From NCBI GenBank assembly GCA_027923505.1, contig BROI01000030.1, positions 62,001 to 126,000 on the forward strand: 64,000 bases of DNA. The letters run 5' to 3'. Positions within the stretch are counted from its first letter, which is position 1. Every line of letters begins with the position of its first letter. The notes below the pieces were generated by a model. That model was given only the letters and a program-made list of their open reading frames with translations, ran no database searches and was not told where the DNA came from. Positions 20,191-57,900 of this stretch are shown piece by piece. A program made the translations under genes and the position numbers. Source of the DNA: Mayamaea pseudoterrestris. Lineage: Eukaryota > Bacillariophyta > Bacillariophyceae > Sellaphorales > Sellaphoraceae.

Positions 20191-20200
20191 TCACCAATAT
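20181..20200. other. Left A-to-B satellite junction
   Basis: Family A reads GTGGCCAGGGCA up to 20,190 and family B starts at TCACCAATATC from 20,191. One base (T) is shared by both continuations. The A break lies in its GGCCAGGG segment (20,181-20,188). The B break lies inside the 19-bp dyad of the B monomer, so only its right arm (TCACCA) is present. The join is sharp, with no filler. Confidence 0.9.
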
Positions 20201-29776: not shown

Positions 29777-29940
29777 GGGGGAGATCAGGACAGTTGTCTT
29801 GCATCTCCTGAGACACTGAGCCAGGGGCATACATCTTGTAGCGCAGCCTGAATAATGATGTTGGCACCATTCTTGTATTTTGGCACCTACAGGGCCTGTA
29901 GGGGCGTTTGAATGTCACGGCATTCTGCGCGGGTAGACTG
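29777..29940. repeat. Eroded B unit after the duplication
   Basis: A poor-quality unit (GGGGGAGATCAGGACAGTTG, then TCTCCTGAGACACTGAGCCA) that breaks the similarity to copy 1. Normal units begin by about 29,940. Confidence 0.75.
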
Positions 29941-32900
29941 GTGACAAGTTGTCACCAATATCATTGCCGTCCCCTGAGACACTAGCCAGGCATACCATCT
30001 TGTAGCGCAGCCTGAATAATGATGTTGGCACCATTCTGGTGTCATTTGGGTGTATACATGGCCTGCTGTAGGGGCGTTTGAATGTCACGGCATCTGCGGG
30101 CTGAGACTGGTGACAAGTTGTCACCAATATCATTGCCATCCCCTGAGACACTAGCCAGGCATACCATCTTGTAGCGCAATTTGAATAATGATGTTGGCAC
30201 CATTCTGGTGTCATTTGGGTGTATACATGGCCTGCTGTAGGGGCGTTTGAATGTCACGGCATCTGCAGGCTGAGACTGGTGACAAGTTGTCACCAATATC
30301 ATTGCCGTCCCCTGAGACACTAGCCAGGCATACCATCTTGTAGCGCAGCCTGAATAATGATGTTGGCACCATTCTGGTGTATTGGTGTACTACAGGCCTG
30401 CTGCAGGGGCGTTTGAATGTCACGGCATCTGCAGGCTGAGACTGGTGACAAGTTGTCACCAATATCATTGCTGTCCCCTGAGACACTAGCCAGGCATACC
30501 ATCTTGTTGCGCAGCCTGAATAATGATGTTGGCACCATTCTGGTGTCATTTGGGTGTATACATGGCCTGCTGTAGGGGCGTTTGAATGTCACGGCATCTG
30601 CAGGCTGAGACTGGTGACAAGTTGTCACCAATATCATTGCCGTCCCCTGAGACACTAGCCAGGCATACCATCTTGTAGTGCAGCCTGAATAATGATGTTG
30701 GCACCATTCTGGTGTCATTTGGGTGTATACATGGCCTGCTGTAGGGGCGTTTGAATGTCACGGCATCTGCAGGCTGAGACTGGTGACAAGTTGTCACCAA
30801 TATCATTGCCGTCCCCTGAGACACTAGCCAGGCATACCATCTTGTAGCGCAGCCTGAATAATGATGTTGGCACCATTCTGGTGTCTTTTGGGCGCATACA
30901 GGGCTTGCTGTAGGGGCGTTTGAATGTCACGGCATCTGCGGGCTGAGACTGGTGACAAGTTGTCACCAATATCATTGCCGTCCCCTGAGACACTAGCCAG
31001 GCATACCATCTTGTAGCGCAGCCTGAATAATGATGTTGGCACCATTCTGGTGTATTTTGGGCACCTACAGGGCTTGCTGTAGGGGCGTTTGAATGTCACG
31101 GCATCTGCAGGCTGAGACTGGTGACAAGTTGTCACCAATATCATTGCCGTCCCCTGAGACACTAGCCAGGCATACCATCTTGTAGCGCAGCCTGAATAAT
31201 GATGTTGGCACCATTCTGGTGTATTTTGGGCACATACATGGCCTGCTGTAGGGGCGTTTGAATGTCACGGCATCTGCAGGCTGAGACTGGTGACAAGTTG
31301 TCACCAATATCATTGCTGTCCCCTGAGACAATAGTTAGGCATACCATCTTGTGGCGCAGTTTGTATAATAATGTTGGCACCATTCTGGTGTCATTTGGGT
31401 CTATACATGGCCTGCTGTACGTCACGGCATCTGCAGGCTGAGACTGGTGACAAGTTGTCACCAATATCATTGCCATTGCCTGAGACACTAGCCAGGCATA
31501 CCATCTTGTAGCGCAGCCTGAATAATGATGTTGGCACCATTCTGGTGTCATTTGGGTGTATACATGGCCTGCTGTAGGGGCGTTTGAATGTCACGGCATC
31601 TGCGGGCTGAGACTGGTGACAAGTTGTCACCAATATCATTGCCGTCCCCTGAGACACTAGCCAGGCATACCATCTTGTAGCGCAGCCTGAATAATGATGT
31701 TGGCACCATTCTGGTGTCATTTGGGTGTATACATGGCCTGCTGTTAGGGCGTTTGAATGTCACGGCATCTGCAGGCTGAGACTGGTGACAAGTTGTCACC
31801 AATATCATTGCCGTCCCCTGAGACACTAGCCAGGCATACCATCTTGTAGCGCAGCCTGAATAATGATGTTGGCACCATTCTGGTGTATTTTGGGTACCTA
31901 CAGGGCTTGCTGTAGGGGCGTTTGAATGTCACGGCATCTGCGGGCTGAGACTGGTGACAAGTTGTCACCAATATCATTGCCGTCCCCTGAGACACTAGCC
32001 AGGCATACCATCTTGTAGCGCAGCCTGAATAATGATGTTGGCACCATTGTGGTGTAATTTCTACACATACAGGGCCTGCTGTAGGCGCGTTTGAATGTCA
32101 CGGCATCTGCAGGCTGAGACTGGTGACAAGTTGTCACCAATATCATTGCCGTCCCCTGAGACACTAGCCAGGCATACCATCTTGTTAGCGCAGCCTGAAT
32201 AATGATGTTGGCACCATTCTGGTGTCATTTGGGTGTATACATGGCCTGCTGTAGGGCGTTTGAATGTCACGGCATCTGCAGGCTGAGACTGGTGACAAGT
32301 TGTCACCAATATCATTGCCGTCCCCTGAGACACTAGCCAGGCATACCATCTTGTAGCGCAGCCTGAATAATGATGTTGGCACCATTCTGGTGTCATTTGG
32401 GTGTATACATGGCCTGCTGTAGGGGCGTTTGAATGTCACGGCATCTGCAGGCTGAGACTGGTGACAAGTTGTCACCAATATCATTGCCGTCCCCTGAGAC
32501 ACTAGCCAGGCATACCATCTTGTAGCGCAGCCTGAATAATGATGTTGGCACCATTCTGGTGTCATTTGGGTGTATACATGGCCTGCTGAAGGGCGTTTGA
32601 ATGTCACGGCATCTGCAGGCTGAGACTGGTGACAAGTTGTAACCAATATCATTGCCGTCCCCCGAGACACTAGCCAGGCATACCATCTTGTAGCGCAGCC
32701 TGAATAATGATGTTGGCACCATTCTGGTGTTATTTGGGCGTATACGTGGCCTGCGGGGCGTTTGAATGTCACGGCATCTGCGGCTGAGACTGGTGACAAG
32801 TTGTCACCAATATCATTGCCGCCCCTGAGACACTAGCCAGGCATACCATCTTGTGGCGCAGCCGAAATGATGTTGGCACCATTCTGGTGTCATTTGGGTG

Positions 32901-34660
32901 CATACAGGGCCTGCTGTAGGGGCGTTTGAATGTCACGGCATCTGCAGGCTGAGACTGGTGACAAGTTGTCACCAATATCATTGCCGTCCCCTGAGACACT
33001 AGCCAGGCATACCATCTTGTTGCGCAGCCTGAATAATGATGTTGGCACCATTCTGGTGTCATTTGGGTGTACCTACATGGCCTGCTGTAGGGGCGTTTGA
33101 ATGTCACGGCATCTGCAGGCTGAGACTGGTGACAAGTTGTCACCAATATCATTGCCGTCCCCTGAGACACTAGCCAGGCATACCATCTTGTAGCGCAGCC
33201 TGAATAATGATGTTGGCACTATTCTGGTGTCATTTGGGTGTATACATGGCCTGCTGAAGGGCGTTTGAATGTCACGGCATCTGCAGGCTGAGACTGGTGA
33301 CAAGTTGTCACCAATATCATTGCCGTCCCCTGAGACACTAGCCAGGCATACCATCTTGTAGCGCAGCCTGAATAATGATGTTGGCACCATTCTGGTGTCA
33401 TTTGGGTGTATACATGGCCTGCTGTAGGGGCGTTTGAATGTCACGGCATCTGCAGGCTGAGACTGGTGACAAGTTGTCACCAATATCATTGCCGTCCCCT
33501 GAGACACTAGCCAGGCATACCATCTTGTTGCGCAGCCTGAATAATGATGTTGGCACCATTCTGGTGTCATTTGGGTGTATACATGGCCTGCTGTAGGGGC
33601 GTTTGAATGTCACGGCATCTGCGGGCTGAGACTGGTGACAAGTTGTCACCAATATCATTGCCGTCCCCTGAGACACTAGCCAGGCATACCATCTTGTAGC
33701 GCAGCTTGAATAATGATGTTGGCACCATTCTGGTGTCATTTGGGTGTATACATGGCCTGCTGTAGGGGCGTTTGAATGTCACGGCATCTGCAGGCTGAGA
33801 CTGGTGACAAGTTGTCACCAATATCATTGCCGTCCCCTGAGACACTAGCCAGGCATACCATCTTGTAGCGCAGCCTGAATAATGATGTTGGCACCATTCT
33901 GGTGTCATTTGGGTGTATACATGGCCTGCTGTAGGGGCGTTTGAATGTCACGGCATCTGCGGGCTGAGACTGGTGACAAGTTGTCACCAATATCATTGCC
34001 GTCCCCTGAGACACTAGCCAGGCATACCATCTTGTAGCGCAGCCTGAATAATGATGTTGGCACCATTCTGGTGTCATTTGGGTGTATACAGGGCTTGCTG
34101 TAGGGGCGTTTGAATGTCACGGCATCTGCGGGCTGAGACTGGTGACAAGTTGTCACCAATATCATTGCCGTCCCCTGAGACACTAGCCAGGCATACCATC
34201 TTGTTGCGCAGCCTGAATAATGATGTTGGCACCATTCTGGTGTCATTTGGCTGTAATCAACGCATGATGTAGGGGCGTTTGAATGTCACGGCATCTGCAG
34301 GCTGAGACTGGTGACAAGTTGTCACCAAATATCATTGCCGTCCCCTGAGACACTAGCCAGGAATACCATCTTGTAGCGCAGCCTGAACAATGATGTTGGC
34401 ACCATTCTGGTGTCATTTGGGTCTATACATGGCCTGCTGTACGTCACGGCATCTGCAGGCTGAGACTGGTGACAAGTTGTCACCAATATCATTGCCATCC
34501 CCTGAGACACTAGCCAGGCATACCATCTTGTAGCGCAGCCTGAATAATGATGTTGGCACCATTCTGGTGTCATTTGGGTGTATACATGGCCTGCTGTAGG
34601 GGCGTTTGAATGTCACGGCATCTGCAGGCTGAGACTGGTGACAAGTTGTCACCAATATCA
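29941..34660. repeat. Clean B units, left core
   Basis: About 28 units close to 169 bp. Alternative spacers are common between 30.8 and 32.1 kb (GCGCATACAGGGCTTGCTG near 30,890, GCACCTACAGGGCTTGCTG near 31,060, GTACCTACAGGG near 31,895, and a private TAATTTCTACACATACAGG near 32,055). Two units lacking the same 12 bp between CTGTA and GTCACGG occur at about 31,415 and 34,437, 3,022 bp (close to 18 units) apart. Confidence 0.92.
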
Positions 34661-36330
34661 TTGCCATCCCCTGAGACACCCAGGCATACCATTTCGCAGC
34701 CGAATAATGATGTTGGCACCATTCTGGTGTCATTTGGGTGTATACATGGCCTGCTGTAGGGGCGTTTGAATGTCACGGCATCTGCGGGCTGAGACTGGTG
34801 ACAAGTTGTCACCAATATCATTGCCGTCCCCTGAGACACTAGCCAGGCATACCATCTTGTAGCGCAGCCTGAATAATGATGTTGGCACCATTCTGGTGTC
34901 ATTTGGGTGAACAGGCGGCCTGTAGGGGCGTTTGAATGTCACGGCATCTGCGGGCTGAACTGGTGACAAGTTGTCACCAATATCATTGCCGTCCCCGAGA
35001 CACTAGCCAGGCATACCATCTTGTAGCGCAGCCTGAATAATGATGTTGGCACCATTCTGGTGTCATTTGGGTGTATACATGGCCTGCTGTAGGGGCGTTT
35101 GAATGTCACGGCATCTGCAGGCTGAGACTGGTGACAAGTTGTCACCAATATCATTGCCCCCCGAGACACTAGCCAGGCATACCATCTTGTAGCGCAGCCT
35201 GAATAATGATGCTGGCACCAGACATTCTGGTGTCATACTGGCCGCTGTAGGGGCGTTTGAATGTCACGGCACTGCGGCTGAGACTGGTGACAAGTTGTCA
35301 CCACAATTGCTGGCCACCCGAGACACTAGCCGGCATACCATCTTGCAGCGCAGCCTGAATAATGATGTTGGCACCATTCTGGTGTCATTTGGGTGTATAC
35401 ATGGCCTGCTGTAGGGGCGTTTGAATGTCACGGCATCTGCAGGCTGAGACTGGTGACAAGTTGTCACCAATATCATTGCCGTCCCCTGAGACACTAGCCA
35501 GGCATACCATCTTGTAGCGCAGCCTGAATAATGATGTTGGCACCATCCTGGTGTCATTTTGGGGGCAACAGGCCGCAGGGGCGTTTGAATGTCACGGCAT
35601 CTGCAGGCTGAGACTGGTGACAAGTTGTCACCAATATCATTGCCGCCCCGAGACACTAGCCAGGCATACCATCTTGTTGCGCAGCCTGAATAATGATGTT
35701 GGCACCATTCTGGTGTCATTTGGGTGTATACATGGCCTGCTGTAGGGGCGTTTGAATGTCACGGCATCTGCGGGCTGAGACTGGTGACAAGTTGTCACCA
35801 ATATCATTGCCGTCCCCTGAGACACTAGCCAGGCATACCATCTTGTAGCGCAGCCTGAATAATGATGTTGGCACCATTCTGGTGTCATTTGGGTGTATAC
35901 ATGGCCTGCTGTAGGGGCGTTTGAATGTCACGGCATCTGCAGGTTGAGACTGCGACAAGTTGTCACCAAACATTGCCGTCCCCCGAGACACTAGCCAGGC
36001 ATACCATCTTGTAGCGCAGCCTGAATAATGATGTTGGCACCATTCTGGTGTCATTTGGGTGTACAGGCCTGCGTAGGGGCGTTGAATGTCACTGCATCTG
36101 CGGGCTGAGACTGGTGACAAGTTGTCACCAATATCATTGCCGTCCCCTGAGACACTAGCCAGGCATACCATCTTGTAGCGCAGCCTGAATAATGATGTTG
36201 GCACCATTCTGGTGTCATTTGGGTGTATACATGGCCTGCTGTAGGGGCGTTTGAATGTCACGGCATCTGCAGGCTGCGACATGTACAAAGTTGTCACCAA
36301 TATCTCCCCCCTCGACGCAGTTCCGAGCCA
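34661..36330. repeat. Moderately eroded B units
   Basis: Units with small deletions and damaged spacers alternate with normal ones (for example GGCGGCCTGTAGGGG near 34,914, GACATTCTGGTGTCATACTG near 35,221, GGGGGCAACAGGCCGCAGGG near 35,560, and CTGCGACATGTACAAAGTTG near 36,274). Unit order and orientation are unchanged. Confidence 0.82.
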
Positions 36331-39300
36331 GGCATACCATCTTGTTGCGCAGCCTGAATAATGATGTTGGCACCATTCTGGTGTCATTTGGGTGTATACA
36401 TGGCCTGTTCTAGGGGCGTTTGAATGTCACGGCATCTGCAGGCTGAGACTGGTGACAAGTTGTCACCAATATCATTGCCGTCCCCTGAGACACTAGCCAG
36501 GCATACCATCTTGTAGCGCAGCCTGAATAATGATGTTGGCACGATTCTGGTGTCATTTGGGTGTATACAGGGCCTGCTGTAGGGGCGTTTGAATGTCACG
36601 GCATCTGCGGGCTGAGACTGGTGACAAGTTGTCACCAATATCATTGCCGTCCCCTGAGACACTAGCCAGGCATACCATCTTGTAGCGCAGCCTGAATAAT
36701 GATGTTGGCACCATTCTGGTGTCATTTGGGTGCATACATGGCCTGCTGTAGGGGCGTTTGAATGTCACGGCATCTGCAGGCTGAGACTGGTGACAAGTTG
36801 TCACCAATATCATTGCCGTCCCCTGAGACACTAGCCAGGCATACCATCTTGTTGCGCAGCCTGAATAATGATGTTGGCACCATTCTGGTGTCATTTGGGT
36901 GTATACATGGCCTGCTGTAGGGGCGTTTGAATGTCACGGCATCTGCAGGCTGAGACTGGTGACAAGTTGTCACCAATATCATTGCCGCCCCCTGAGACAC
37001 TAGCCAGGCATACCATCTTGTAGCGCAGCCTGAATAATGATGTTGGCACCATTCTGGTGTCATTTGGGTGTATACATGGCCTGCTGTAGGGGCGTTTGAA
37101 TGTCACGGCATCTGCAGGCTGAGACTGGTGACAAGTTGTCACCAATATCATTGCCGTCCCCTGAGACACTAGCCAGGCATACCATCTTGTAGCGCAGCCT
37201 GAATAATGATGTTGGCACCATTCTGGTGTCATTTGGGTGTATACATGGCCTGCGTGGGCGCTTGAATGTCACGGCATCTGCAGGCTGAGACTAGTGACAA
37301 GTTGTCACCAATACCATTGCCGTCCCCTGAGACACTATCCAGGCATACCATCTTGTAGCGCAGCCTGAATAATGATGTTGGCACCATTCTGGTGTCATTT
37401 GGGTGTATACATGGCCTGCTGTAGGGGCGTTTGAATGTCACGGCATCTGCGGGCTGAGACTGGTGACAAGTTGTCACCAAATACATTGCCATCCCTTGAG
37501 ACACCAGCCAAGCCCAGCCTGTATAATGATGCTGGCACCATTCTGGTGTCATTTGGGTGTAGACATAGCCTGCTGTAGGGGCGTTTGAATGTCACGGCAT
37601 CTGCAGGCTGAGACTGGTGACAAGTTGTCACCAATAACATTGCCGTCCCCTGAGACACTAGCCAGGCATACCATCTTGTTGCGCAGCCTGAATAATGATG
37701 TTGGCACCATTCTGGTGTCATTTGGGTGTATACATGGCCTGCTGTAGGGGCGTTTGAATGTCACGGCATCTGCAGGCTGAGACTGGTGACAAGTTGTCAC
37801 CAATATCATTGCCGTCCCCTGAGACACTAGCCAGGCATACCATCTTGTAGCGCAGCCTGAATAATGATGTTGGCACCATTCTGGTGTCATTTGGGTGTAT
37901 ACATGGCCTGCTGTAGGGGCGTTTGAATGTCACGGCATCTGCGGGCTGAGACTGGTGACAAGTTGTCACCAATATCATTGCCATCCCCTGAGACACTAGC
38001 CAGGCATACCATCTTGTAGCGCAGCCTGAATAATGATGTTGGCACCATTCTGGTGTCATTTGGGTGGATACATGGCCTGCTGTAGGGGCGTTTGAATGTC
38101 ACGGCATCTGCAGGCTGAGACTGGTGACAAGTTGTCACCAATATCACTGCCGCCCCCTGAGACACTAGCCAGGCATACCATCTTGTAGCGCAGCCTGAAT
38201 AATGATGTTGGCACCATTCTGGTGTCATTTGGGTGTATACATGGCCTGCTGTAGGGGCGTTTGAATGTCACGGCATCTGCGGGCTGAGACTGGTGACAAG
38301 TTGTCACCAATATCATTGCTGTCCCCTGAGACACTAGCCAGGCATACCATCTTGTTGCGCAGCCTGAATAATGATGTTGGCACCATTCTGGTGTCATTTG
38401 GGTGTATACATGGCCTGCTGTAGGGGCGTTTGAATGTCACGGCATCTGCAGGCTGAGACTGGTGACAAGTTGTCACCAATATCATTGCCGTCCCCTGAGA
38501 CACTAGCCAGGCATACCATCTTGTAGCGCAGCCTGAATAATGATGTTGGCACCATTCTGGTGTCATTTGGGTGCATACATGGCCTGCTGTAGGGGCGTTT
38601 GAATGTCACGGCATCTGCAGGCTGAGACTGGTGACAAGTTGTCACCAATATCATTGCCGTCCCCTGAGACACTAGCCAGGCATACCATCTTGTAGCGCAG
38701 CCTGAATAATCATGTTCGCACCATTCTGCTGTCCTTTGGGCCTACACACGGCCTGCTGTACGGGCATTTGAATGTCACGGCATCTGCAGGCTGAGACTGG
38801 TGACAAGTTGTCACCAATATCATTGCCGTCCCCCGAGACACTAGCCAGGCATACCATCTTGTAGCGCAGCCTGAATAATGATGTTGGCACCATTCTGGTG
38901 TCATTTGGGTGTATACATGGCCTGCTGTAGGGGCGTTTGAATGTCACGGCATCTGCGGGCTGAGACTGGTGACAAGTTGTCACCAATATCATTGCCGTCC
39001 CCTGAGACACTAGCCAGGCATACCATCTTGTAGCGCAGCCTGAATAATGATGTTGGCACCATTCTGGTGTCATTTGGGTGTATACATGGCCTGCTGTAGG
39101 GGCGTTTGAATGTCACGGCATCTGCAGGCTGAGACTGGTGACAAGTTGTCACCAATATCATTGCCGCCCCCTGAGACACTAGCCAGGCATACCATCTTGT
39201 AGCGCAGCCTGAATAATGATGTTGGCACCATTCTGGTGTCATTTGGGTGTATACATGGCCTGCTGTAGGGGCGTTTGAATGTCACGGCATTTGCAGGCTG

Positions 39301-40318
39301 AGACTGGTGACAAGTTGTCACCAATATCATTGCCGTCCCCTGAGACACTAGCCAGGCATACCATCTTGTAGCGCAGCCTGAATAATGATGTTGGCACCAT
39401 TCTGGTGTCATTTGGGTGTATACATGGCCTGCTGTAGGGGCGTTTGAATGTCACGGCATCTGCAGGCTGAGACTGGTGACAAGTTGTCACCAATATCATT
39501 GCCGTCCCCTGAGACACTAGCCAGGCATACCATCTTGTAGCGCAGCCTGAATAATGATGTTGGCACCATTCTGGTGTCATTTGGGTATATACATAGCCTG
39601 CTGTAGGGGCGTTTGAATGTCACGGCATCCGCGGGCTGAGACTGGTGACAAGTTGTCACCAATATCATTGCCATTCCTCGAGACACTAGCCAGGCATACC
39701 ATCTTGTAGCGCAGCCTGAATAATGATGTTGGCACCATTCTGGTGTCATTTGGGTACCTACAGGGCCTGCTGTAGGGGCGTTTGAATGTCACGGCATCTG
39801 CAGGCTGAGACTGGTGACAAGTTGTCACCAATATCATTGCCGTCCCCTGAGACACTAGCCAGGCATACCATCTTGTTGCGCAGCCTGAATAATGATGTTG
39901 GCACCATTCTGGTGTCATTTGGGTGTATACATGGCCTGCTGTAGGGGCGTTTGAATGTCACGGCATCTGCAGGCTGAGACTGGTGACAAGTTGTCACCAA
40001 TCACAATGCCGTCCCCAGAGACACTAGCCAGGCATACCATCTTGTAGCGCAGCCTGAATGATGATGTTGGCACCATTCTGGTGTCATTTGGGTGTATACA
40101 TGGCCTGCTGTAGGGGCGTTTGAATGTCACGGCATCTGCGGGCTGAGACTGGTGACAAGTTGTCACCAATATCATTGCCGTCCCCTGAGACACTAGCCAG
40201 GCATACCATCTTGTAGCGCAGCCTGAATAATGATGTTGGCACCATTCTGGTGTCATTTGGGTGTATACATGGCCTGCTGTAGGGGCGTTTGAATGTCACG
40301 GCATCTGCAGGCTGAGAC

Positions 40319-40337
40319 TGGTGACAAGTTGTCACCA
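40319..40337. other. 19-bp dyad in family B monomers (representative copy)
   Basis: TGGTGACAAGTTGTCACCA is its own reverse complement except for the central G, so it has two 9-bp arms. It recurs once per 169-bp unit through the array. In the eroded 54-58 kb zone the inner part GTGACAAGTTGTCACC usually survives (for example near 55,382, 55,672 and 56,649) while flanking sequence is shortened. Rare altered copies are seen near 32,640 (TTGTAACC), 43,190 (GGTGACCAAGTGTCACC), 43,530 (GTTTTCACC) and 61,147 (GACAGGTTGTC). It is not a CENP-B box. Possible roles are a dimeric DNA-binding protein site or a hairpin/cruciform; neither is shown by sequence alone. Confidence 0.85.
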
Positions 40338-40408
40338 ATATCATTGCCGTCCCCTGAGACACTAGCCAGGCATACCATCTTGTAGCGCAGCCTGAATAAT
40401 GATGTTGG
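40335..40408. other. Second inverted pair in B monomer (11-bp arms, 52-bp loop)
   Basis: CCAATATCATT (40,335-40,345) and AATGATGTTGG (40,398-40,408) are complementary at 10 of 11 positions, the eleventh being a G-T pair. The loop of 52 bases holds the CTGAGACACTAG and CCATCTTGTAG segments. The left arm starts in the last bases of the 19-bp dyad. A transcript of either strand could fold here; the array could equally carry it as a relic of an internal inverted duplication. Confidence 0.6.
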
Positions 40409-43400
40409 CACCATTCTGGTGTCATTTGGGTGTATACATGGCCTGCTGTAGGGGCGTTTGAATGTCACGGCATCTGCAGGCTGAGACTGGTGACAAGTTG
40501 TCACCAATATCATTGCCGTCCCCTGAGACACTAGCCAGGCATACCATCTTGTAGCGCAGCCTGAATAATGATGTTGGCACCATTCTGGTGTCATTTGGGT
40601 GTATACATGGCCTGCTGTAGGGGCGTTTGAATGTCACGGCATCTGCAGGCTGAGACTGGTGACAAGTTGTCACCAATATCATTGCCGTCCCCTGAGACAC
40701 TAGCCAGGCATACCATCTTGTAGCGCAGCCTGAATAATGATGTTGGCACCATTCTGGTGTCATTTGGGTGTACTACATGGCCTGCTGTAGGGGCGTTTGA
40801 ATGTCACGGCATCTGCAGGCTGAGACTGGTGACAAGTTGTCACCAATATCATTGCCGTCCCCTGAGACACTAGCCAGGCATACCATCTTGTAGCGCAGCC
40901 TGAATAATGATGTTGGCACCATTCTGGTGTCATTTGGGTGTATACATGGCCTGCTGTAGGGGCGTTTGAATGTCACGGCATCTGCAGGCTGAGACTGGTG
41001 ACAAGTTGTCACCAATATCATTGCACGCCCCTGAGACACTAGCCAGGCATACCATCTTGTAGCGCAGCCTGAATAATGATGTTGGCACCATTCTGGTGTC
41101 ATTTGGGTGTATACAGGGCCTGCTGTAGGGGCGTTTGAATGTCACGGCATCTGCAGGCTGAGACTGGTGACAAGTTGTCACCAATATCATTGCCGTCCCC
41201 TGAGACACTAGCCAGGCATACCATCTTGTAGCGCAGCCTGAATAATGATGTTGGCACCATTCTGGTGTCATTTGGGTGTATACATGGCCTGCTGTAGGGG
41301 CGTTTGAATGTCACGGCATCTGCAGGCTGAGACTGGTGACAAGTTGTCACCAATATCATTGCCGTCCCCTGAGACACTAGCCAGGCATACCATCTTGTAG
41401 CGCAGCCTGAATAATGATGTTGGCACCATTCTGGTGTCATTTGGGTGCATACATGGCCTGCTGTAGGGGCGTTTGAATGTCACGGCATCTGCAGGCTGAG
41501 ACTGGTGACAAGTTGTCACCAATATCATTGCCGTCCCCTGAGACACTAGCCAGGCATACCATCTTGTAGCGCAGCCTGAATAATGATGTTGGCACCATTC
41601 TGGTGTCATTTGGGTGTATACATGGCCTGCTGTAGGGGCGTTTGAATGTCACGGCATCTGCAGGCTGAGACTGGTGACAAGTTGTCACCAATATCATTGC
41701 CGTCCCCTGAGACACTAGCCAGGCATACCATCTTGTAGCGCAGCCTGAATAATGATGTTGGCACCATTCTGGTGTCATTTGGGTGTATACATGGCCTGCT
41801 GTAGGGGCGTTTGAATGTCACGGCATCTGCGGGCTGAGACTGGTGACAAGTTGTCACCAATATCATTGCCGTCCCCTGAGACACTAGCCAGGCATACCAT
41901 CTTGTAGCGCAGCCTGAATAATGATGTTGGCACCATTCTGGTGTATTTTGGGCACCTACAGGGCTTGCTGTAGGGCGTTTGAATGTCACGGCATCTGCGG
42001 GCTGAGACTGGTGACAAGTTGTCACCAATATCATTGCCGTCCCCTGAGACACTAGCCAGGCATACCATCTTGTAGCGCAGCCTGAATAATGATGTTGGCA
42101 CCATTCTGGTGTCATTTGGGTGCATACATGGCCTGCTGTAGGGGCGTTTGAATGTCACGGCATCTGCAGGCTGAGACTGGTGACAAGTTGTCACCAATAT
42201 CATTGCCGTCCCCAAGACACTAGCCAGGCATACCATCTTGTAGCGCAGCCTGAATAATTGATGTTGGCACCATTCTGGTGTCATTTGGGTGTATACATGG
42301 CCTGCTGTGGGGGCGTTTGAATGTCACGGCATCTGCGGGCTGAGACTGGTGACAAGTTGTCACCAATATCATTGCCGTCCCCTGAGACACTAGCCAGGCA
42401 TACCATCTTGTAGCGCAGCCTGAATAATGATGTTGGCACCATTCTGGTGTCATTTGGGTGTATACAGGGCTTGCTGTAGGGGCGTTTGAATGTCACGGCA
42501 TCTGCAGGCTGAGACTGGTGACAAGTTGTCACCAATATCATTGCCGTCCCCTGAGACACTAGCCAGGCATACCATCTTGTAGCGCAGCCTGAATAATGAT
42601 GTTGGCACCATTCTGGTGTCATTTGGGTGTATACATGGCCTGCTGGGGGGTTGAATGTCACGGCATCTGCAGGCTGAGACTGGTGACAAGTTGTCACCAA
42701 TATCATTGCCGTCCCCGAGACACAGCCAGGCATACCATCTTGTAGCGCAGCCTGAATAATGATGTTGGCACCATTCTGGTGTCATTTGGGTGTATACATG
42801 GCCTGCTGTAGGGGCGTTTGAATGTCACGGCATCTGCAGGCTGAGACTGGTGACAAGTTGTCACCAATATCATTGCCGTCCCCTGAGACACTAGCCAGGC
42901 ATACCATCTTGTTAGCGCAGCCTGAATAATGATGTTGGCACCATTCTGGTGTCATTTGGGTGCATACATGGCCTGCTGTAGGGGCGTTTGAATGTCACGG
43001 CATCTGCAGGCTGAGACTGGTGACAAGTTGTCACCAATATCATTGCCGTCCCCTGAGACACTAGCCAGGCATACCATCTTGTAGCGCAGCCTGAATAATG
43101 ATGTTGGCACCATTCTGGTGTCATTTGGGTGTATACATGGCCTGCTGTAGGGGCGTCGAATGTCACAGCATCTGCAGGCTGAGAGCGGTGACCAAGTGTC
43201 ACCAATAGCATTGCCGTCCCCTGAGACACTAGCCAGGCATACCATCTTGTAGCGCAGCCTGAATAATGATGTTGGCACCATTCTGGTGTCATTTGGGTGT
43301 ATACATGGCCTGCTGTAGGGGCGTTTGAATGTCACGGCATCTGCAGGCTGAGACTGGTGACAAGTTGTCACCAATATCATTGCCGTCCCCTGAGACACTA

Positions 43401-46400
43401 GCCAGGCATACCATCTTGTAACCCAGCCTGAATAATGATGTTGGCACCATTCTGGTGTCATTTGGTTATATTCATGGCCTGCTGTAGGGGCGTTTGAGTG
43501 GCACGGCATCTGCGGCCTGAGACTGGTGACAAGTTTTCACCAATATCATTGCTGTGCTTGAGACACTATCCAGGCATACCATCTTGTAGCGCAGCCTGAA
43601 TAATGATGTTGGCACCATTCTGGTGTCATTTGGGTGTATACATGGCCTGCTGTAGGGGCGTTTGAATGTCACGGCATCTGCAGGCTGAGACTGGTGACAA
43701 GTTGTCACCAATATCATTGCCGTCCCCTGAGACACTAGCCAGGCATACCATCTTGTAGCGCAGCCTGAATAATGATGTTGGCACCATTCTGGTGTCATTT
43801 GGGTGTATACATGGCCTGCTGAAGGGCGTTTGAATGTCACGGCATCTGCAGGCTGAGACTGGTGACAAGTTGTCACCAATATCATTGCCGTCCCCTGAGA
43901 CACTAGCCAGGCATACCATCTTGTAGCGCAGCCTGAATAATGATGTTGGCACCATTCTGGTGTCATTTGGGTGTATACATGGCCTGCTGTAGGGGCGTTT
44001 GAATGTCACGGCATCTGCAGGCTGAGACTGGTGACAAGTTGTCACCAATATCATTGCCGTCCCCTGAGACACTAGCCAGGCATACCATCTTGTAGCGCAG
44101 CCTGAATAATGATGTTGGCACCATTCTGGTGTCATTTGGGTGCCTACAGGGCCTGCTGTAGGGGCGTTTGAATGTCACGGCATCTGCAGGCTGAGACTGG
44201 TGACAAGTTGTCACCAATATCATTGCCGTCCCCTGAGACACTAGCCAGGCATACCATCTTGTTGCGCAGCCTGAATAATGATGTTGGCACCATTCTGGTG
44301 TCATTTGGGTGTATACATGGCCTGCTGTAGGGGCGTTTGAATGTCACGGCATCTGCAGGCTGAGACTGGTGACAAGTTGTCACCAATATCATTGCCGTCC
44401 CCTGAGACACTAGCCAGGCATACCATCTTGTAGCGCAGCCTGAATAATGATGTTGGCACCATTCTGGTGTCATTTGGGTACATACAGGGCCTGCTGTAGG
44501 GGCGTTTGAATGTCACGGCATCTGCAGGCTGAGACTGGTGACAAGTTGTCACCAATATCATTGCCGTCCCCTGAGACACTAGCCAGGCATACCATCTTGT
44601 AGCGCAGCCTGAATAATGATGTTGGCACCATTCTGGTGTCATTTGGGCGTATACAGGGCCTGCTGTAGGGGCGTTTGAATGTCACGGCATCTGCAGGCTG
44701 AGACTGGTGACAAGTTGTCACCAATATCATTGCTGTCCCCTGAGACACTAGCCAGGCATACCATCTTGTAGCGCAGCCTGAATAATGATGTTGGCACCAT
44801 TCTGGTGTCATTTGGGTGTATACATGGCCTGCTGTAGGGGCGTTTGAATGTCACGGCATCTGCAGGCTGAGACTGGTGACAAGTTGTCACCAATATCATT
44901 GCCGTCCCCCGAGACACTAGCCAGGCATACCATCTTGTAGCGCAGCCTGTATAATGATGCTGGCACCATTCTGGTGTCATTTGGGTGTAGACATAGCCTG
45001 CTGTAGGGGCATTTGAATGTCACGGCATCCACGGGCTGAGACTGGTGACAAGTTGTCACCAATATCATTGCTTTTCCTTGAGACACTATCCAGGCATACC
45101 ATCTTGTAGCTCAGCCTGAATAATGATGTTGGCACCATTCTGGTGTCATTTGGGTGTATACAGGGCTTGCTGTAGGGGCGTTTGAATGTCACGGCATCTG
45201 CAGGCTGAGACTGGTGACAAGTTGTCACCAATATCATTGCCGTCCCCTGAGACACTAGCCAGGCATACCATCTTGTAGCGCAGCCTGAATAATGATGTTG
45301 GCACCATTCTGGTGTCATTTGGGTGTATACATGGCCTGCTGTAGGGGCGTTTGAATGTCACGGCATCTGCAGGCTGAGACTGGTGACAAGTTGTCACCAA
45401 TATCATTGCCGTCCCCTGAGACACTAGCCAGGCATACCATCTTGTAGCGCAGCCTGAATAATGATGTTGGCACCATTCTGGTGTCATTTGGGTGTATACA
45501 TGGCCTGCTGTAGGGGCGTTTGAATGTCACGGCATCTGCAGGCTGAGACTGGTGACAAGTTGTCACCAATATCATTGCCGTCCCCTGAGACACTAGCCAG
45601 GCATACCATCTTGTTGCGCAGCCTGAATAATGATGTTGGCACCATTCTGGTATCATTTGGGCACCTACATGGCCTGCTGTAGGGGCATTTGAATGTCATG
45701 GCATCTGCGGGCTGAGACTGGTGACAAGTTGTCACCAATATCATTGCCGTCCCCTGAGACACTAGCCAGGCATACCATCTTGTAGCGCAGCCTGAATAAT
45801 GATGTTGGCACCATTCTGGTGTCATTTGGGTGTATACATGGCCTGCTGTAGGGGCGTTTGAATGTCACGGCATCTGCGGGCTGAGACTGGTGACAAGTTG
45901 TCACCAATATCATTGCTGTCCCCTGAGACACTAGCCAGGCATATCATCTTGTAGCGCAGCCTGAATAATGATGTTGGCACCATTCTGGTGTCATTTGGGT
46001 GTATACATGGCCTGCTGTAGGGGCGTTTGAATGTCACGGCATCTGCAGGCTGAGACTGGTGACAAGTTGTCACCAATATCATTGCCGTCCCCTGAGACAC
46101 TAGCCAGGCATACCAGCTTGTAGCGCAGCCTGAATAATGATGCTGGCACCATTCTGGTGTAATTTGGGCGTATACATGGCCCGCTGTAGGGGGGTTTGAA
46201 TGTCACGGCATCTGCAGGCTGAGACTGGTGACAAGTTGTCACCAATATCATTGCCGTCCCCTGAGACACTAGCCAGGCATACCATCTTGTAGCGCAGCCT
46301 GAATAATGATGTTGGCACCATTCTGGTGTCATTTGGGTGTACCTACATGGCCTGCTGTAGGGGGCGTTTGAATGTCACGGCATCTGCAGGCTGAGACTGG

Positions 46401-47170
46401 TGACAAGTTGTCACCAATATCATTGCCGTCCCCGAGACACTAGCCAGGCATACCATCTTGTAGCGCAGCCTGTATAATGATGTTGGCTCCATTCTGGTGT
46501 CATTTGGGCGTCTACAGGGCCTGCTGTAGGGGCGTTTGAATGTCACGGCATCTGCAGGCTGAGACTGGTGACAAGTTGTCACCAATATCATTGCCGTCCC
46601 CTGAGACACTAGCCAGGCATACCATCTTGTAGCGCAGCCTGAATAATGATGTTGGCACCATTCTGGTGTCATTTGGGGTATACATGGCCTGCTGTAGGGG
46701 CGTTTGAATGTCACGGCATCTGCAGGCTGAGACTGGTGACAAGTTGTCACCAATATCATTGCCGTCTCCTGAGACACCAGCCAGGCATACCATCTTGTAG
46801 CGCAGCCTGAATAATGATGTTAGCACCATTCTGGTGTCATTTGGGTGTATACATAGCCTGCTATAGGGGCGATTGAATGCGGCATCTGCCGGCTGAGACT
46901 GGTGACAAGTTGTCACCAATCACAATGCCATCCCCAGAGACACACGCCAGGCATACCATCTTGTAGCGCAGCCGGAATGATGATGCTGGCACCATTCTGG
47001 TGTCATTTGGGTGTATACATGGCCTGCTGTAGGGGTGTTTGAATGTCACGGCATCTGCAGGCTGAGACTGGTGACAAGTTGTCACCAATATCATTGCCGT
47101 CCCCTGAGACACTAGCCAGGCATACCATCTTGTAGCGCAGCCTGAATAATGATGTTGGCACCATTCTGGT

Positions 47171-50100
47171 GTCATTTGGGTGTATACAGGCCTGCTGTAG
47201 GGCGTTGAATGTCACGGCATCTGCCGGATGAGACTGGTGACAAGTTGTCACCAATATCATTGCCTCCCCTGAGACACTAGCCAGGCATATCATCTTGTAG
47301 CGCAGCCTGAATAATGATGTTGGCACCATTCTGGTGTCATTTGGGTGTATACATAGCCTGCTGTAGGGCGCTTGAATGTCACGGCATCTGCAGGCTGAGA
47401 CTGGTGACAAGCTGTCACCAATATCATTGCCGTCACCTGAGACACTAGCCAGGCATACCATCTTGTAGCGCAGCCTGAATAATGATGTTGGCACCATTCT
47501 GGTGTCATTTGGGTATACATGGCCTGCTGTAGGGCGTTTGAATGTCACGGCATCTGCAGCTGAGACTGGTGACAAGTTGTCACCAATATCATTGCCGTCC
47601 CCTGAGACACTAGCCAGGCATACCATCTTGTAGCGCAGCCTGAATAATGATGTTGGCACCATTCTGGTGTCATTTGGGTGCATACATGGCCTGCTGTAGG
47701 GGCGCTTGAATGTCACGGCATCTGCGGGCTCAGACTGGTGACAAGTTGTCACCAATATCATTGCCGTCCCCTGAGACACTAGCCAGGCATACCATCTTGT
47801 AGCGCAGCCTGAATAATGATGTTGGCACCATTCTGGTGTCATTTGGGTGTATACGGGCCTGCTGTAGGGCGTTTGAATGTCACGGCATCTGCAAGGCTGA
47901 GACTGGTGACAAGTTGTCACCAATATCATTGCCGTCCCCTGAGACACTAGCCAGGCATACCATCTTGTAGCGCAGCCTGAATAATGATGTTGGCACCATT
48001 CTGGCTCATTTGGGTGTATACATGGCCTGCTGTAGGGGCGTTTGAATGTCACGGCATCTGCAGGCTGAGACTGGCGACAAGTTGTCACCAATACATTGCC
48101 GTCCCCTGAGACACTAGCCAGGCATACCATCTTGTAGCGCAGCCTGAATAATGATGTTGGCACCATCTGGTGTCATTTGGTGTACCTACAGGGCCTGCGG
48201 TAGGGGGGTTGAATGTCACGGCATCTGCGGGCTGAGACTGGTGACAAGTTGTCACCAATATCATTGCCGTCCCCTGAGACACAGCCAGGCAACCATCTTG
48301 TAGCGCAGCCTGAATAATGATGTTGGCACCATTCTGGTGTCATTTGGGTGCAACAGGGCCTGCGTAGGGGCGAATGTCACGGCATCTGCAGGCTGAGACT
48401 GGTGACAAGTTGTCACCAATTCATTGCCGCCCCTGAGACACTAGCCAGGCATACCATCTTGTAGCGCAGCCTGAATAATGATGTTGGCACCATTCTGGTG
48501 TCATTTGGGTGCATACATGGCCTGCTGTAGGGCGTTGAATGTCACGGCATCTGCGTGGCTGAGACTGGTGACAAGTTGTCACCAATATCATTGCCGTCCC
48601 CCGAGACACTAGCCAGGCATATAATCTTGTTGCGCAGCCTGAATAATGATGTTGGCACCATTCTGGTTTCTTTTGGGTATAAACAGGGCCTGCTGTAGGG
48701 GCGTTTGAATGTCACGGCATCTGCAGGCGAGACTGGTGACAAGTTGTCACCAATATCATTGCCGTCCCCGAGACACTAGCCAGGCATACCATCTGTTGCG
48801 CAGCCTGAAAATTGATGTTGGCACCATTCTGGTGTCATTTGGGTGTATACATGGCCTGCTGTAGGGGCGTTTGAATGTCACGGCATCTGCAGGCTGAGAC
48901 TGGTGACAAGTTGTCACCAATATCATTGCCGCCCTGAGACACCAGCCAGGCATACATCTTGTAGCGCAGCCTGAATAATGATGTTGGCACCATTCTGGTG
49001 TCATTTGGGTGTATACATGGCCTGCTGTAGGGGCGTTTGAATGTCACGGCATCTGCGGGCTGAGCCTGGTGACAAGTTGTCACATATACCATTGCATCCC
49101 CTGAGACACCAGCCAGGCATATCATCTTGTAGCGCAGCCTGAATAATGATGTTGGCACCATTCTGGTGTCATTTGGGCGCCTACAGGGCCTGCTGTAGAG
49201 GCGTTTGAATGTCACGGCATCTGCAGGCTGAGACTGGTGACAAGTTGTCACCAATATCATTGCCATCCCCTGAGACACTAGCCAGGCATACCATCTTGTA
49301 GCGCAGCCTGAATAATGATGTTGGCACCATTCTGGTGTCATTTGGGTGTATACATGGCCTGCTGTAGGGGCGTTTGAATGTCACGGCATCTGCAGGCTGA
49401 GACTGGTGACAAGTTGTCACCAATATCATTACCGACCCTGAGACACTAGCCAGGCATACCATCTTGTAGCGCAGCCTGAATAATGATGTTGGCACCATTC
49501 TGGTGTCATTTGGGTGTACTACATGGCCTGCTGTAGGGGCGTTGAATGTCACGGCATCTGCAGGCTGAGACTGGTGACAAGTTGTCACCAATATCATTGC
49601 CACCCCTGAGACACTAGCCAGGCATACCATCTTGTAGCGCAGCCTGAATAATGATGTTGGCACCATTCTGGTGTCATTTGGGCGTACATGGCCTGCTGTA
49701 GGGGCTTGAATGTCACGGCATCTGCAGGCTGAGACTGGTGACAAGTTGTCACCAATATCATTGCCGTCCCTGAGACACTAGCCAGGCATACCATCTTATA
49801 GCGCAGCCTGAATAATGATGTTGGCACCATTCTGGTGTAATTTGGGGCACCTACATGGCCTGCTGTAGGGGCGTGAATGTCACGGCATCTGCAGGCTGAG
49901 ACTGGTGACAAGTTGTCACCAATATCATTGCCGCCCCTGAGACACAGCCAGGCATACCATCTTGTAGCGCAGCCTGAATAATGATGTTGGCACCATTCTG
50001 GTGTCATTTGGGTGTATACATGGCCCGCTGTAGGGGCGTTTGAATGTCACGGCATCTGCAGGCTGAGACTGGTGACAAGTTGTCACCAATATCATTGCCG

Positions 50101-53100
50101 TCCCCTGAGACACTAGCCAGGCATACCATCTTGTAGCGCAGCCTGAATATTGATGTTGGCACCATTCTGGTGTCATTTGAGTGTATACATGGCCTGCTTA
50201 GGGGCGTTTGAATGTCACGGCATCGGCAGGCTGAGACTGGTGACAAGTTGTCACCAATATCATTGCCGTCCCCTGAGACACTAGCCAGGCATACCAGCTT
50301 GTAGCGCAGCCTGAATAATGATGTTGGCACCATTCTGGTGTCATTTGGGTGTATACATGGCCTGCTGTAGGGGCGTTTGAATGTCACGGCATCTGCGGGC
50401 TGAGACTGGTGACAAGTTGTCACCAATATCATTGCCGTCCCCTGAGACACTAGCCAGGCATACCATCTTGTAGCGCAGCCTGAATAATGATGTTGGCACC
50501 ATTCTGGTGTCATTTGGGCGCATACAGGCCTCTGTAGGGGCGTTGAATGTCACGGCATCTGCAGGCTGAGACTGGTGACAAGTTGTCACCAATACATTGC
50601 CGTCCCCTGAGACACTAGCCAGGCATACCATCTTGTAGCGCAGCCTGAATAATGATGTTGGCACCATTCTGGTGTAATTTGGGTGTATACATGGCCTGCT
50701 GAAGGGCGTTTGAATGTCACGGCATCTGCAGGCTGAGACTGGTGACAAGTTGTCACCAATATCATTGCCGTCCCCTGAGACACTAGCCAGGCATACCATC
50801 TTGTAGCGCAGCCTGAATAATGATGTTGGCACCATTCTGGTGTATTTTGGGCACATACAGGGCCTGCTGTAGGGGCGTTTGAATGTCACGGCATCTGCAG
50901 GCTGAGACTGGTGACAAGTTGTCACCAATATCATTGCCATCCCCTGAGACACTAGCCAGGCATACCGTCTTGTAGCTCAGCCTGTATAATGATGTTGGCA
51001 CCATTCTGGTGTCATTTGGGTGTATACATGGCCTGCTGTAGGGGCGTTTGAATGTCACGGCATCCGCGGGCTGAGACTGGTGACAAGTTGTCACCAAATT
51101 CATTGCCGTCCCCGAGACACTAGCCAGGCATACCATCTTGTAGCGCAGCCTGAATAATGATGTTGGCACCAATCTGGTGTCATTTGGGTGTATACATGGC
51201 CTGCTGTAGGGGCGTTTGAATGTCACGGCATCTGCAGGCTGAGACTGGTGACAAGTTGTCACCAATAACATTGCCGTCCCCGAGACACTAGCCAGGCATA
51301 CCATTGTAGCGCAGCCTGAATAATGATGTTGGCACCATTCTGGCGTATTTGGGTGTACCTACAGGGACTGCTGTAGGGGCATTTGAATGTCACGGCATCT
51401 GCGGGCTGAGACTGGTGACAAGTTGTCACCAATATCATTACCGACCCTGAGACACTAGCCAGGCATACCATCTTGTAGCGCAGCCTGAATAATGATGTTG
51501 GCACCATTCTGGTGATATTTGGTTGTATATATGGCCTGCTGTAGGGCGTTTGAATGTCACGGCATCTGCAGGCTGAGACTGGTGACAAGTTGTCACCAAT
51601 ATCATTGCCGTCCCCTGAGACACTAGCCAGGCATACCATCTTGTTGCGCAGCCTGAATAATGATGTTGGCACCATTCTGGTGTTATTTGGTTGTATACAT
51701 GGCCTGCTTAGGGGCGTTGAATGTCACGGCATCTGCAGGCTGAGACTGGTGACAAGTTGTCACCAATATCATTGCCGTCCCCTGAGACACTAGCCAGGCA
51801 TACCATTGTAGCGCAGCCTGAATAATGATGTTGGCACCTCTGGTGTCATTTGGTGTAACAGGGCCTGCTGTAGGCGTTTGAATGTCACGGCATCTGCAGG
51901 CTGAGACTGGTGACAAGTTGTCACCAATATCATTGCCGTCCCCTGAGACACTAGCCAGGCATACCATCTTGTAGCGCAGCCTGAATAATGATGTTGGCAC
52001 CATTCTGGTGTTATTTGGGTGTTTAGATGGCCTGCTGTAGGGGCGTTTGAATGTCACGGCATCTGCAGGCTGAGACTGGTGACAAGTTGTCATGAATATC
52101 ATTGCCGTCCCCTGAGACACTGCCAGGCATACCATCTTGTAGCGCAGCCTGAATAATGATGTTGGCACCATTCTGGTGTCATTTGGGTGCACTACAGGGC
52201 CTGCTGTAGGGGCGTTTGAATGTCACGGCATCTGCAGGCTGAGACTGGTGACAAGTTGTCACCAATATCATTGCCGTCCCCTGAGACACTAGCCAGGCAT
52301 ACCATTTGTAGCGCAGCCTGAATAATGATGTTGGCACCATTCTGGTGACATTTGGGCGTAACTGGCCTGCTGTAGGGCGTTTAAATGTCACGGCATCTGC
52401 AGGCTGAGACTGGTGACAAGTTGTCACCAATATCATTGCCGTCCCCTGAGACACTAGCCAGGCATACCATCTTGTAGCGCAGCCTGAATAATGATGTTGG
52501 CACCATTCTGGTGTCATTTGGGTGCATACATGGCCTGCGTAGGGCGTTTGAATGTCACGGCATCTGCGGGCTGAGACTGGTGACAAGTTGTCACCAATAT
52601 CATTGCCGCCCCCCGAGACACTAGCCAGGCATACCATCTTGTAGCGCAGCCTGAATAATGATGTTGGCACCATTCTGGTGTCATTTGGGGTAATACATGG
52701 CCTGCTGTAGGGCTTTGAATGTCCCGGCATCTGCAGGCTGAGACTGGTGACAAGTTGTCACCAATATCATTGCCGTCCCCTGAGACACTAGCCAGGCATA
52801 CCATCTTGTTGCGCAGCCTGAATAATATGTTTGCACCATCTGGTGTCATTTGGGTGTACTACAGGGCCTGCTGTAGGGGCGTTTGAATGTCACGGCATCT
52901 GCAGGCTGAGACTGGTGACAAGTTGTCACCAATATCATTGCTGTCCCCTGAGACACTAGCCAGGCATACCATCTGTTGCGCAGCCTGAAAATGATGTTGG
53001 CACCATTCTGGTGTCATTAGGGCGTATACATGGCTTGCTGTAGGGGCGTTTGAATGTCACGGCATCTGCGGGCTGAGACTGGTGACAAGTTGTCACCAAT

Positions 53101-53480
53101 ATCATTGCCGTCCCCTGAGACACTAGCCAGGCATACCATCTTGTTGCGCAGCCTGAATAATGATGTTGGCACCATTCTGGTGTCATTTGGGTGTAAATGG
53201 CCTGCTGTAGGGGCGTTGATGTCACGGCATCTGCAGGCTGAGACTGGTGACAAGTTGTCACCCATGCCGTCCCCGAGACACTAGCCAGGCATACCATCTT
53301 GTAGCGCAGCCTGAATAATGATGTTGGCACCATTCTGGTGTCATTTGGGCATACAGGGCCTGCTGTAGGGGCGTTTGAATGTCACGGCATCTGCAGGCTA
53401 GACTGGTGACAAGTTGTCACCAATATCATTGCCGTCCCCGAGACACCAGCCAGGCATACCATCTTGTAGCGCAGCCTGAA
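47171..53480. repeat. B units with scattered small deletions
   Basis: Unit order is regular but most units are missing one to several bases, mainly in the GGCCTGCTGTAGGGGCGTTT segment and in GTCCCCTGAGACACTAG. Several successive units near 47.0-48.2 kb are 168 bp or otherwise a multiple of three, which produces one uninterrupted minus-strand frame of 387 codons. It has no other sign of being a gene. Confidence 0.85.
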
Positions 53481-56400: not shown

Positions 56401-57900
56401 TGGTTTGCAAGTAGGCACCATCGGTAGATAATGTCCCCGACGGAAAATGTTGGCAGCTGAAAAATGAGTGGACATTCTGGTTCATTTGTGCTACAGGGTG
56501 TCGTGGTGAGACAAAGTCACCAAAACGTCCTGAGACATAGCAGGCCTACCATCTTGGAGCGCAGCTGTATAATGATGTTGGCACCATTCTGGTGTATTTG
56601 GGTATATACACGTAGGGGGTGTTCTGAATGTAGCTTGCGGCTCGAGACGTGACAAGTTGTCACCAAATATTCCATCCCCGAAGACACCAGCAGGCCTACC
56701 ATCTTGTAGCGCAGCTGAATAGATGTAGGGAATTGTGTTTTTGTGCACCTACAGGGTGTGTGGCGTTTGAATGTCACGGATGCGGAGGTGAGTTGTCACC
56801 AATTGGTCCCAGACACAGCAGGCTACCATCTTGTAGGCAGCGAATAAGAGTGGCGTGTCATGGACATACAGGGGGGGGTGAATGTCACGCATCTGGGGTG
56901 AGACTGGTGACAAGTTGTCACCAATACATTGCGCCGAGAAGACATTTGTGCCAGCCTGAAAAATGATGTTGGCACCTTCAGGGGTGTGCGGGGGAATGTC
57001 ACGCATAGGCTACGGTGACGTTGTCACCCGAGACAAGGCATACATCTGTAGCGCAGCCTAAATGTGTTGAAGGTGTAGAAAGTGGGGCGTTGAATGTCAC
57101 GGCATTGCAGGGAGAGTCAAGTTGTCACCAATACTTCGTGAGACAAGGGACCTGTGCGCAGCCTGATAATATGTTGGCACATTCTGGTGGGATTTTGGTG
57201 TACCTACATGGCTGGGAGGTGTTGAATGTCACGGCATCTGCAGGTGGACGGGTGACAAGTTGTCACCAATATCATTGCCGTCCCCCGAGACACAGCCAGG
57301 CATACCATCTTGCGCAGCCTGAAAATGATGTTGGCACCATTCGGTGTCATTTGGTGTACACAGGCTGCTGTAGGGGCTGAATGTCACGGCATCTCAGGTG
57401 AGACTGGTGACAAGTTGTCACCAATATCATTGCCGTCCCTGAGACACTAGCCAGGCATACCATGTTGCGCAGCTGAATAAGATGTTGGCACCATTCTGGT
57501 GTCATTTGGGTGTATACATGGCCTGTGTAGGGCGTTTGAATGTCACGGATCTGAGGTGAGACGGTGACAAGTTGTCACCAATATCATTACCGTCCCCTGA
57601 GACACCAGCAGGCATACATCTGTAGCGCAGCCTGAATAATGATGTTGGCACCATTCTGGTGTATTGGGGTAATGGCCTGCTGTAGGTGTCGGATGAGGTT
57701 GAACTCCCCGACAAGCCAGGCATACATCTTGTAGCGCAGCCTGAATAATGATGTTGGCACCATTCTGGTGTCATTTGGGTGTATACATGGCCTGCTGTAG
57801 GGGCGATGTCACGATCTGCAGGCTGAGACTGGTGACAAGTTGTCACCAATATCATTGCCGTCCCCCGAGACAAGCAGGCATACCATCTTGTTGCGCAGCC
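53481..57900. repeat. Most degraded zone of B array
   Basis: Units shrink to roughly 100-150 bp. What survives best are TGACAAGTTGTCACCAAT, ATCATTGCC, TAGCGCAGCCTGAA and ATGATGTTGGCACCATTC. Between about 55,700 and 57,100 only short words are left. Losses are overwhelmingly deletions, with few substitutions in the words that remain. That is unusual for ordinary neutral decay and typical of a low-quality consensus across mis-stacked repeat reads. No inserted element is recognisable. Confidence 0.8.
56065..56165. other. About 100 bp without clear satellite match
   Basis: From about CTACCTTTAGAATGGAAGG to GAGGGCAGCGGGTGTAAG the sequence does not align to B apart from a central CCCCGAGACAGC. It contains the local inverted words GCATGC and CCTTTAGAATGGAAGG. 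Either a small foreign or unique insert or a heavily corrupted unit. Too short to classify. Confidence 0.45.

Follow-up and report, generated by a model that had tools for sequence, protein, structure and literature searches.

A conserved 19-bp palindrome in a dispersed 169-bp satellite of the diatom Mayamaea pseudoterrestris, a candidate recognition site

Does a palindrome that recurs once per unit of a long satellite have a function, or has it simply been copied along with the repeat? The question was raised by a stretch of 64,000 nucleotides from the diatom Mayamaea pseudoterrestris (hereafter, the window), namely bases 62001-126000 of the 303,049-base contig C30 in a 30.6-Mb genome assembled into 41 contigs. 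Two tandem satellites, A and B, occupied almost the entire window (Table 1), and the palindrome under study, a 19-bp dyad, belonged to B, which had ~51% GC. In A, the higher-order repeat consisted of two units, of 172 and 179/180 bp. Among the 19 contig starts examined, four lay in A or in a diverged A subfamily (C4, C9, C20, C30; L048, L052, L056, L009) and one lay within B (C39). We considered A and B as possible relatives and rejected this idea because shuffle controls revealed no clear sequence relation. Namely, in local alignments with B, 203 of 400 shuffles scored as well as the 172-bp A unit, and for the 179-bp A unit, which 15 of 400 shuffles equalled, the score came from one 11-base match. 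In the genome as a whole, the chlorophyll-binding family PF00504 had 53 matches, a content that points to a photosynthetic stramenopile. The best match of one such protein was to fucoxanthin-binding chains and that of another to the LHCI chains of entry 9vfj. The former was closer to chains of 7vd6 and 6jlu (Chaetoceros gracilis) than to 8iwh (Thalassiosira pseudonana), which spoke against T. pseudonana as the source.

Table 1. Positions of the features discussed in the text, numbered from the first base of the window.
Feature	Position	Strand	Description or basis
A satellite	1..20190	+	172-bp units alternating with 179/180-bp units
B satellite array	20191..63127	+	~257.7 units with a period of 169; the dyad is exact in 201 places
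GAGAC, 5' flank of the dyad	40314..40318	+	array variability count
19-bp dyad TGGTGACAA-G-TTGTCACCA, unit positions 1-19	40319..40337	.	direct reading, palindrome scan
Second, imperfect dyad TGGCACCA-TTC-TGGTGTCA, unit positions 88-106	40406..40424	.	palindrome scan, variability count
Deletion-ridden B stretch, likely an assembly or consensus artefact	54000..58500	+	unit alignment
A satellite again	63262..64000	+	repeat analysis

An earlier note made from the sequence had described 9-bp arms that are fully complementary about one central base and recur at a fixed phase, and both observations were confirmed. The exact word TGGTGACAAGTTGTCACCA was present 201 times against ~257.7 B units, at one phase of the 169-bp unit; its starts in the window ran from 20516 to 62827, and the distance from one exact copy to the next was precisely 169 bp in 91 of 200 cases. 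Dinucleotide-shuffled windows contained no match to the dyad even with one mismatch allowed. Genome-wide, there were 7,561 exact copies (3,689 forward and 3,872 reverse), corresponding to ~1.28 Mb of units at 169 bp each, and the reversed control word had no copies in the 30.6-Mb genome. For comparison, the word from the second dyad was counted 5,448 times and another well-conserved word 4,134 times. The dyad contained neither a CpG nor a homopolymer longer than two bases. The suggested likeness to TALE-homeodomain sites did not hold when judged on half-site spacing alone, since the TALE palindrome has TGACA half-sites two bases apart and three bases separate TGACA from TGTCA here. A palindrome of this size was rare by chance but not impossible: arms of at least 9 bp with a loop of 0-6 bases appeared in 9 of 3,000 base-shuffled units.

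We next examined the variability of the dyad in comparison to the rest of the unit. We aligned B units to a profile, pooling 712 units from 23 labelled arrays, and called an array varied at a position if at least 10% of its units differed there. Over the 17 arrays that had at least 10 units, the number of varied arrays per position was 0.79 in the dyad versus 3.90 in the whole unit. The least variable 19-bp window of the unit started exactly at dyad position 1, and none of 100,000 position permutations produced a value as low. The constrained segment and the palindrome overlapped again in a second alignment, where the unit was cut elsewhere and the arrays were regrouped by distance (713 units, 709 of them spanning the dyad, in 14 clusters of at least 10 units). 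There, the dyad was once more the lowest window, with 0.47 versus 3.05 in the rest (p ~1e-5 for the dyad window and 0.0002 for any window).

Most of these arrays had been chosen via the exact dyad, and the sole set free of that choice consisted of 101 units from 10 arrays, fetched by a variant of the word at unit positions 87-105. In this set, the substitution rate was 3.9% in the dyad versus 14.8% in the rest, which ranked the dyad second of 132 windows, and the lowest window began five bases upstream of it. In 45 units from divergent arrays compared with the C30 consensus, the dyad also ranked second (2.1% substitutions, 15.5% in the rest), and in the 237 cleaner C30 units it ranked third of 167 (0.7% versus 2.7%). 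When all C30 units were included, the dyad was low, not lowest (rank 14 of 167), and its rank was 24 of 167 among all units of the C1:620-640k array. The 59 units at 20-30 kb of the window had 3.1% in the dyad versus 4.7% in the rest and showed no sparing from deletions. Additionally, exact dyads were few in some edge or degenerate arrays (0/5 units at C2:1838k, 7/18 at C3:463k, 6/13 at C3:468k and 5/11 at C3:519k). The earlier note had named a dyad substitution rate equal to the unit average as one result that would speak against a function, and the rates were not equal. For the other, loss of the dyad from the satellites of close relatives, divergent arrays of this genome served as a stand-in. 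With the lowest variability of all windows in both alignments and the second lowest of 132 in the arrays fetched by the outside word, the dyad was less variable than the remainder of the monomer across divergent subfamilies, which is the general mark of a conserved satellite box.

One further argument for conservation had to be dropped. It had been claimed that the inner 16-17 bases of the dyad survive where the unit is eroded at 54-58 kb. In the 26 units of that stretch, the dyad had a deletion rate of 7.9% (5.0% over the inner 17 bases) compared with 10.5% for the remainder of the unit, so the dyad was not notably spared (36th of 132 windows) and the claim was weak. Moreover, these units were dominated by deletions (14.6 deletions and 7.8 substitutions per unit), unlike 261 divergent-array units elsewhere (means of 2.0 and 20.4, respectively). 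Therefore, judging from the assembly alone, the stretch from 54 to 58.5 kb seems to result from poor consensus calling and not from evolution, and survival under erosion was not used as evidence. A similar stretch of short deletions was seen in the A array at 17317-19630, likely due to poor long-read consensus as well.

The low variability of the dyad did not indicate a mutation cold spot, since one-off changes were as common there as elsewhere and only the widely shared ones were scarcer. Variants confined to one unit of an array numbered 37 over the 19 dyad positions versus 220 over 126 non-CpG positions. On the other hand, variants present in at least five units made up 7 of the 57 possible dyad states versus 158 of 378 elsewhere (p = 7.5e-6), and 7 of 41 versus 158 of 348 if only observed states were considered (p = 3.9e-4). 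With a looser cut of at least two units, the comparison of shared and unshared variants gave p = 0.09. Counting all distinct derived states per array, the dyad tied for the lowest value, yet the any-window p was 0.135. New variants, whether true or due to sequencing error, thus appear in the dyad at a normal rate and seldom become common.

The conserved region was slightly wider than the palindrome. Unit positions 165-168, in the 5' flank, were varied (at least 10% variants) in none of the 17 arrays, and position 169 was varied in five. Since the constraint entered a few bases of the 5' flank only, the dyad site may be not purely symmetric. The half-site TGGTGNCA occurred four times per unit, pointing inward at positions 1 and 12 and outward at 88 and 99, with a gap of 3 bp in each case. 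The outward pair belonged to the second dyad, which was picked out post hoc. Among non-overlapping windows of the unit, the one at positions 83-101 had the second lowest variability (2.16), and the right end of the second dyad was variable (position 105 in 17/17 arrays and position 106 in 12/17).

We then considered which changes of the dyad had persisted. The arms were unchanged in 540 of the 632 ungapped dyads. Eight carried the matched swap of C7/G13 to G7/C13, against 0.34 expected under independence, and all eight had C-A at positions 22-23. This shared flank marker suggests that the swap probably traces back to a single old lineage and did not arise many times. A genome search with G7, either base at position 13 and any centre produced 140 matches (palindromes match both strands); among the 100 of them that were listed, 43 places had both changes and 15 had one. 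We observed an old B lineage of the form TGGTGAGAA-S-TTCTCACCA, with the flank GTCACATTG in most units examined, at C2:464k (L078), at L079, L085 and L086 and at places from this genome search, where it was present as short runs or at array edges on several contigs. The central base changed mostly from G to C, which preserves the palindrome. Such flips made up 7 of 8 array-level events at the centre versus 124 of 735 changes at G/C positions elsewhere in the unit (p = 3e-5); counted by units, 11 of the 632 had a central C and 5 a central A. Tolerance to change did not match between mirror positions of the arms (Spearman -0.09). The matched arm changes that the earlier note had suggested looking for therefore exist, limited to the pair 7/13 and seemingly to one old lineage in the units examined. 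Persisting changes of the dyad often preserved the palindrome.

At least 34 of the 41 contigs contained the dyad, a variant of it or the word from the second dyad. On C1 (2.99 Mb), the B family was found at no fewer than six places, two of them small (near 610-678, 946-959, 1252, 1686-1691, 2168-2192 and 2210 kb), and one array end, at C1:677k, was adjoined by a 317-aa ORF. Hence, the single dominant array per chromosome that is characteristic of a centromere was not seen on C1 in the assembly as it stands. B is a dispersed satellite without a single block per chromosome, an arrangement to which assembly errors may contribute, and a centromeric role was not established because the arrays are dispersed and can lie beside genes. 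Several places deserve a separate mention. At C1:1252k (L077), two decayed fragments of B units stood alone in otherwise unrelated sequence, with the dyad as a remnant. On the contig of the window, a B array ended at telomere-like TTAGGG repeats (C30:53,414; L011 ~1414). A run of N opened inside a B array at C1:640001 and extended to at least 641487 (L006 from 1702), possibly as an assembly gap, and B sequence reappeared from ~C1:670.8k (L008).

A search for solo dyads with a changed-flank pattern gave 43 genome matches, most of which, read on the opposite strand, were units that followed a C and had a change at base 20; C34:192933 was the single place that differed on both sides. Outside this genome, the 19-mer was found in 26 stretches of genome_contigs, compared with ~2 expected by size alone (a rough hand estimate), and in 2 of viral_contigs. 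We inspected 14 of these 28 loci, and six (L090, L094, L095, L100, L104, L114) encoded LVT(S/T)CHQ in bacterial genes for one kind of protein, with the L114 protein scoring as Bro-N. Apart from those letters, the satellite frames bore no likeness to this protein, and none of them matched a Pfam family above its cut-off. The bacterial and viral copies were set aside as a codon coincidence.

Taken together, we consider it rather probable that the dyad has a function as a palindromic recognition element, which would most likely be bound once per unit by a putative homodimeric or two-headed nuclear protein that packages or marks the arrays. This protein would recognise the duplex dyad, and its binding would act on the arrays in a CENP-B-like manner, but via a different sequence. 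Dimeric recognition is the simplest reading since the exact letters were kept, the input of changes was normal, variants spread poorly and symmetry-keeping changes survived. The earlier note had proposed either a dimeric satellite-binding protein or a regularly spaced hairpin. The dimeric site fits because the dyad is conserved and matched arm changes exist; the hairpin received no support from the predicted folding of the single strand (z = -0.59). We infer a role in chromatin packaging rather than kinetochore assembly from the location of the arrays: a contig of chromosome size carries them at several sites, and gene-sized ORFs adjoin at least one of them. More tentatively, it is conceivable that a putative dimeric satellite-binding protein evolved within diatoms and that, on at least one occasion, it changed in step with the satellite (C7/G13 to G7/C13, simultaneously in the two half-sites). 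The result would be a CENP-B-like system of separate origin whose targets are scattered arrays, in part next to genes, and not a single centromere on each chromosome.

Other explanations have to be weighed against recognition by a dimeric protein. The dyad might be kept for folding, namely as a hairpin or cruciform (8-bp stem, 3-base loop) that is read structurally or as a substrate for arm-to-arm correction by template switching, which we regard as unlikely. Template switching in a quasi-palindrome yields matched swaps and centre flips, so the 7/13 swap and the centre flips would be expected from it. The 8-bp hairpin did appear in the predicted fold, and short dyads are enriched at the centromeres of several species according to the parts of PMC9070824 and PMC13081366 that deal with them. 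However, the single DNA strand was predicted to fold no better than its shuffles, 51 of 200 of which did equally well, and what was kept in the arms was the letters, not pairing alone. Arm-to-arm correction should also spread errors, which leaves the ~4-7x lower divergence of the dyad unexplained. For RNA, there were no matches to Rfam families up to E = 1 in positions 39800-41000 of the window. Template switching is nevertheless compatible with the protein-binding explanation: it may be the origin of the swap and the flips, which selection for binding would then have retained. It is similarly doubtful that the dyad drives its own spread as a replication start, recombination site or transposase site, so that the constraint would reflect amplification and not a host function. 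Normal one-off changes with seldom common variants would suit such a site, as would the proposal, in the relevant part of PMC3694981, that conserved boxes are rearrangement sites in Meloidogyne satellites. Furthermore, the A-to-B junction of the window fell inside a dyad, with B starting at dyad position 14, and each end of a B block of two units at C2:464k (L078 1247-1633) lay inside a dyad. On the other hand, the edges in general showed no clear preference for the dyad: after 12 of 51 edge rows were removed by eye (6 in the mis-called 56-57 kb and 6 repeats of one place), 7 of 39 were inside it versus ~4.4 expected by length, a weak and not decisive excess. Words of the AACAACTTG type in the flank of the C2:464k block were similar to the dyad core and may be the trace of a recombination or insertion event.

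A functionless palindrome that arose by chance and was copied by homogenisation is disfavoured and seems quite improbable. The shuffled units described above indicate that such a palindrome can arise, but homogenisation alone is not expected to give ~5-6x lower variation over 14-17 arrays of different subfamilies, nor to preserve symmetry through changes. Finally, we see only a very slight chance of a sequencing or assembly effect, by which an easily called segment appears conserved. The stretch at 54-58.5 kb indeed looks mis-called, and the lack of long homopolymers would make the dyad easy to call. However, our main measure was substitutions, the divergent arrays compared with the C30 consensus had just 0.1-0.2% deletions per position, and one-off changes were equally frequent in the dyad and elsewhere.

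Among open-licence literature, no paper on a comparable diatom satellite was found in the matches listed, and there was little on repeat-based chromatin in diatoms. The main text of a long-read study of T. pseudonana and P. tricornutum used neither 'satellite' nor 'tandem repeat' (PMC8147415). The portion of PMC7082073 on the centromeres of Phaeodactylum tricornutum describes them as short, AT-rich and non-repetitive, in contrast to the tandem B satellite with its balanced base composition, and low GC was proposed as a driver of episome maintenance in Phaeodactylum in the corresponding part of PMC4976089. Thousands of copies of a symmetric box with natural matched and mismatched variants should make an easy bait for a new satellite-binding protein, and these variants (centre flip, matched swap and one-arm mutants) could serve as ready-made test oligos.

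The closest parallel is the 17-bp CENP-B box of primate alpha satellite, which is likewise short, at a fixed phase and more conserved than its unit, and the periods are close (169 bp for B versus ~171 bp for alpha satellite). The core of the CENP-B box is TTCG....A..CGGG, and the box is not a full palindrome. As the earlier note had held, the dyad differs from it, since without a CpG it can contain neither TTCG nor CGGG. Moreover, the CENP-B box is centromeric and has a known protein, and the dyad is a candidate site known from sequence alone. The short centromeric dyads of Kasinathan and Henikoff, as summarised in a section of PMC9070824, have arms under 10 bp and regular spacing, as here; with 9-bp arms in 201 exact copies over ~43 kb, the dyad shows the repeated arms of <10 bp by which non-B-form dyads are recognised. 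However, those dyads were tied to structure-forming potential, whereas we found an ordinary predicted fold of the single strand, dispersed arrays and constrained letters. In the Meloidogyne satellites covered by part of PMC3694981, Box 1 and Box 2 resemble the dyad in that 17-20 bp stay conserved while the satellites diverge, and as of 2013 the CENP-B box alone among conserved satellite boxes had an assigned function. Box 1 is CENP-B-box-like and common to satellites of low identity, unlike the dyad, a perfect palindrome of one family (PMC3694981). Thus, as far as its sequence indicates, the dyad is a case of the conserved-box type, in the form of a perfect palindrome within a single satellite family.
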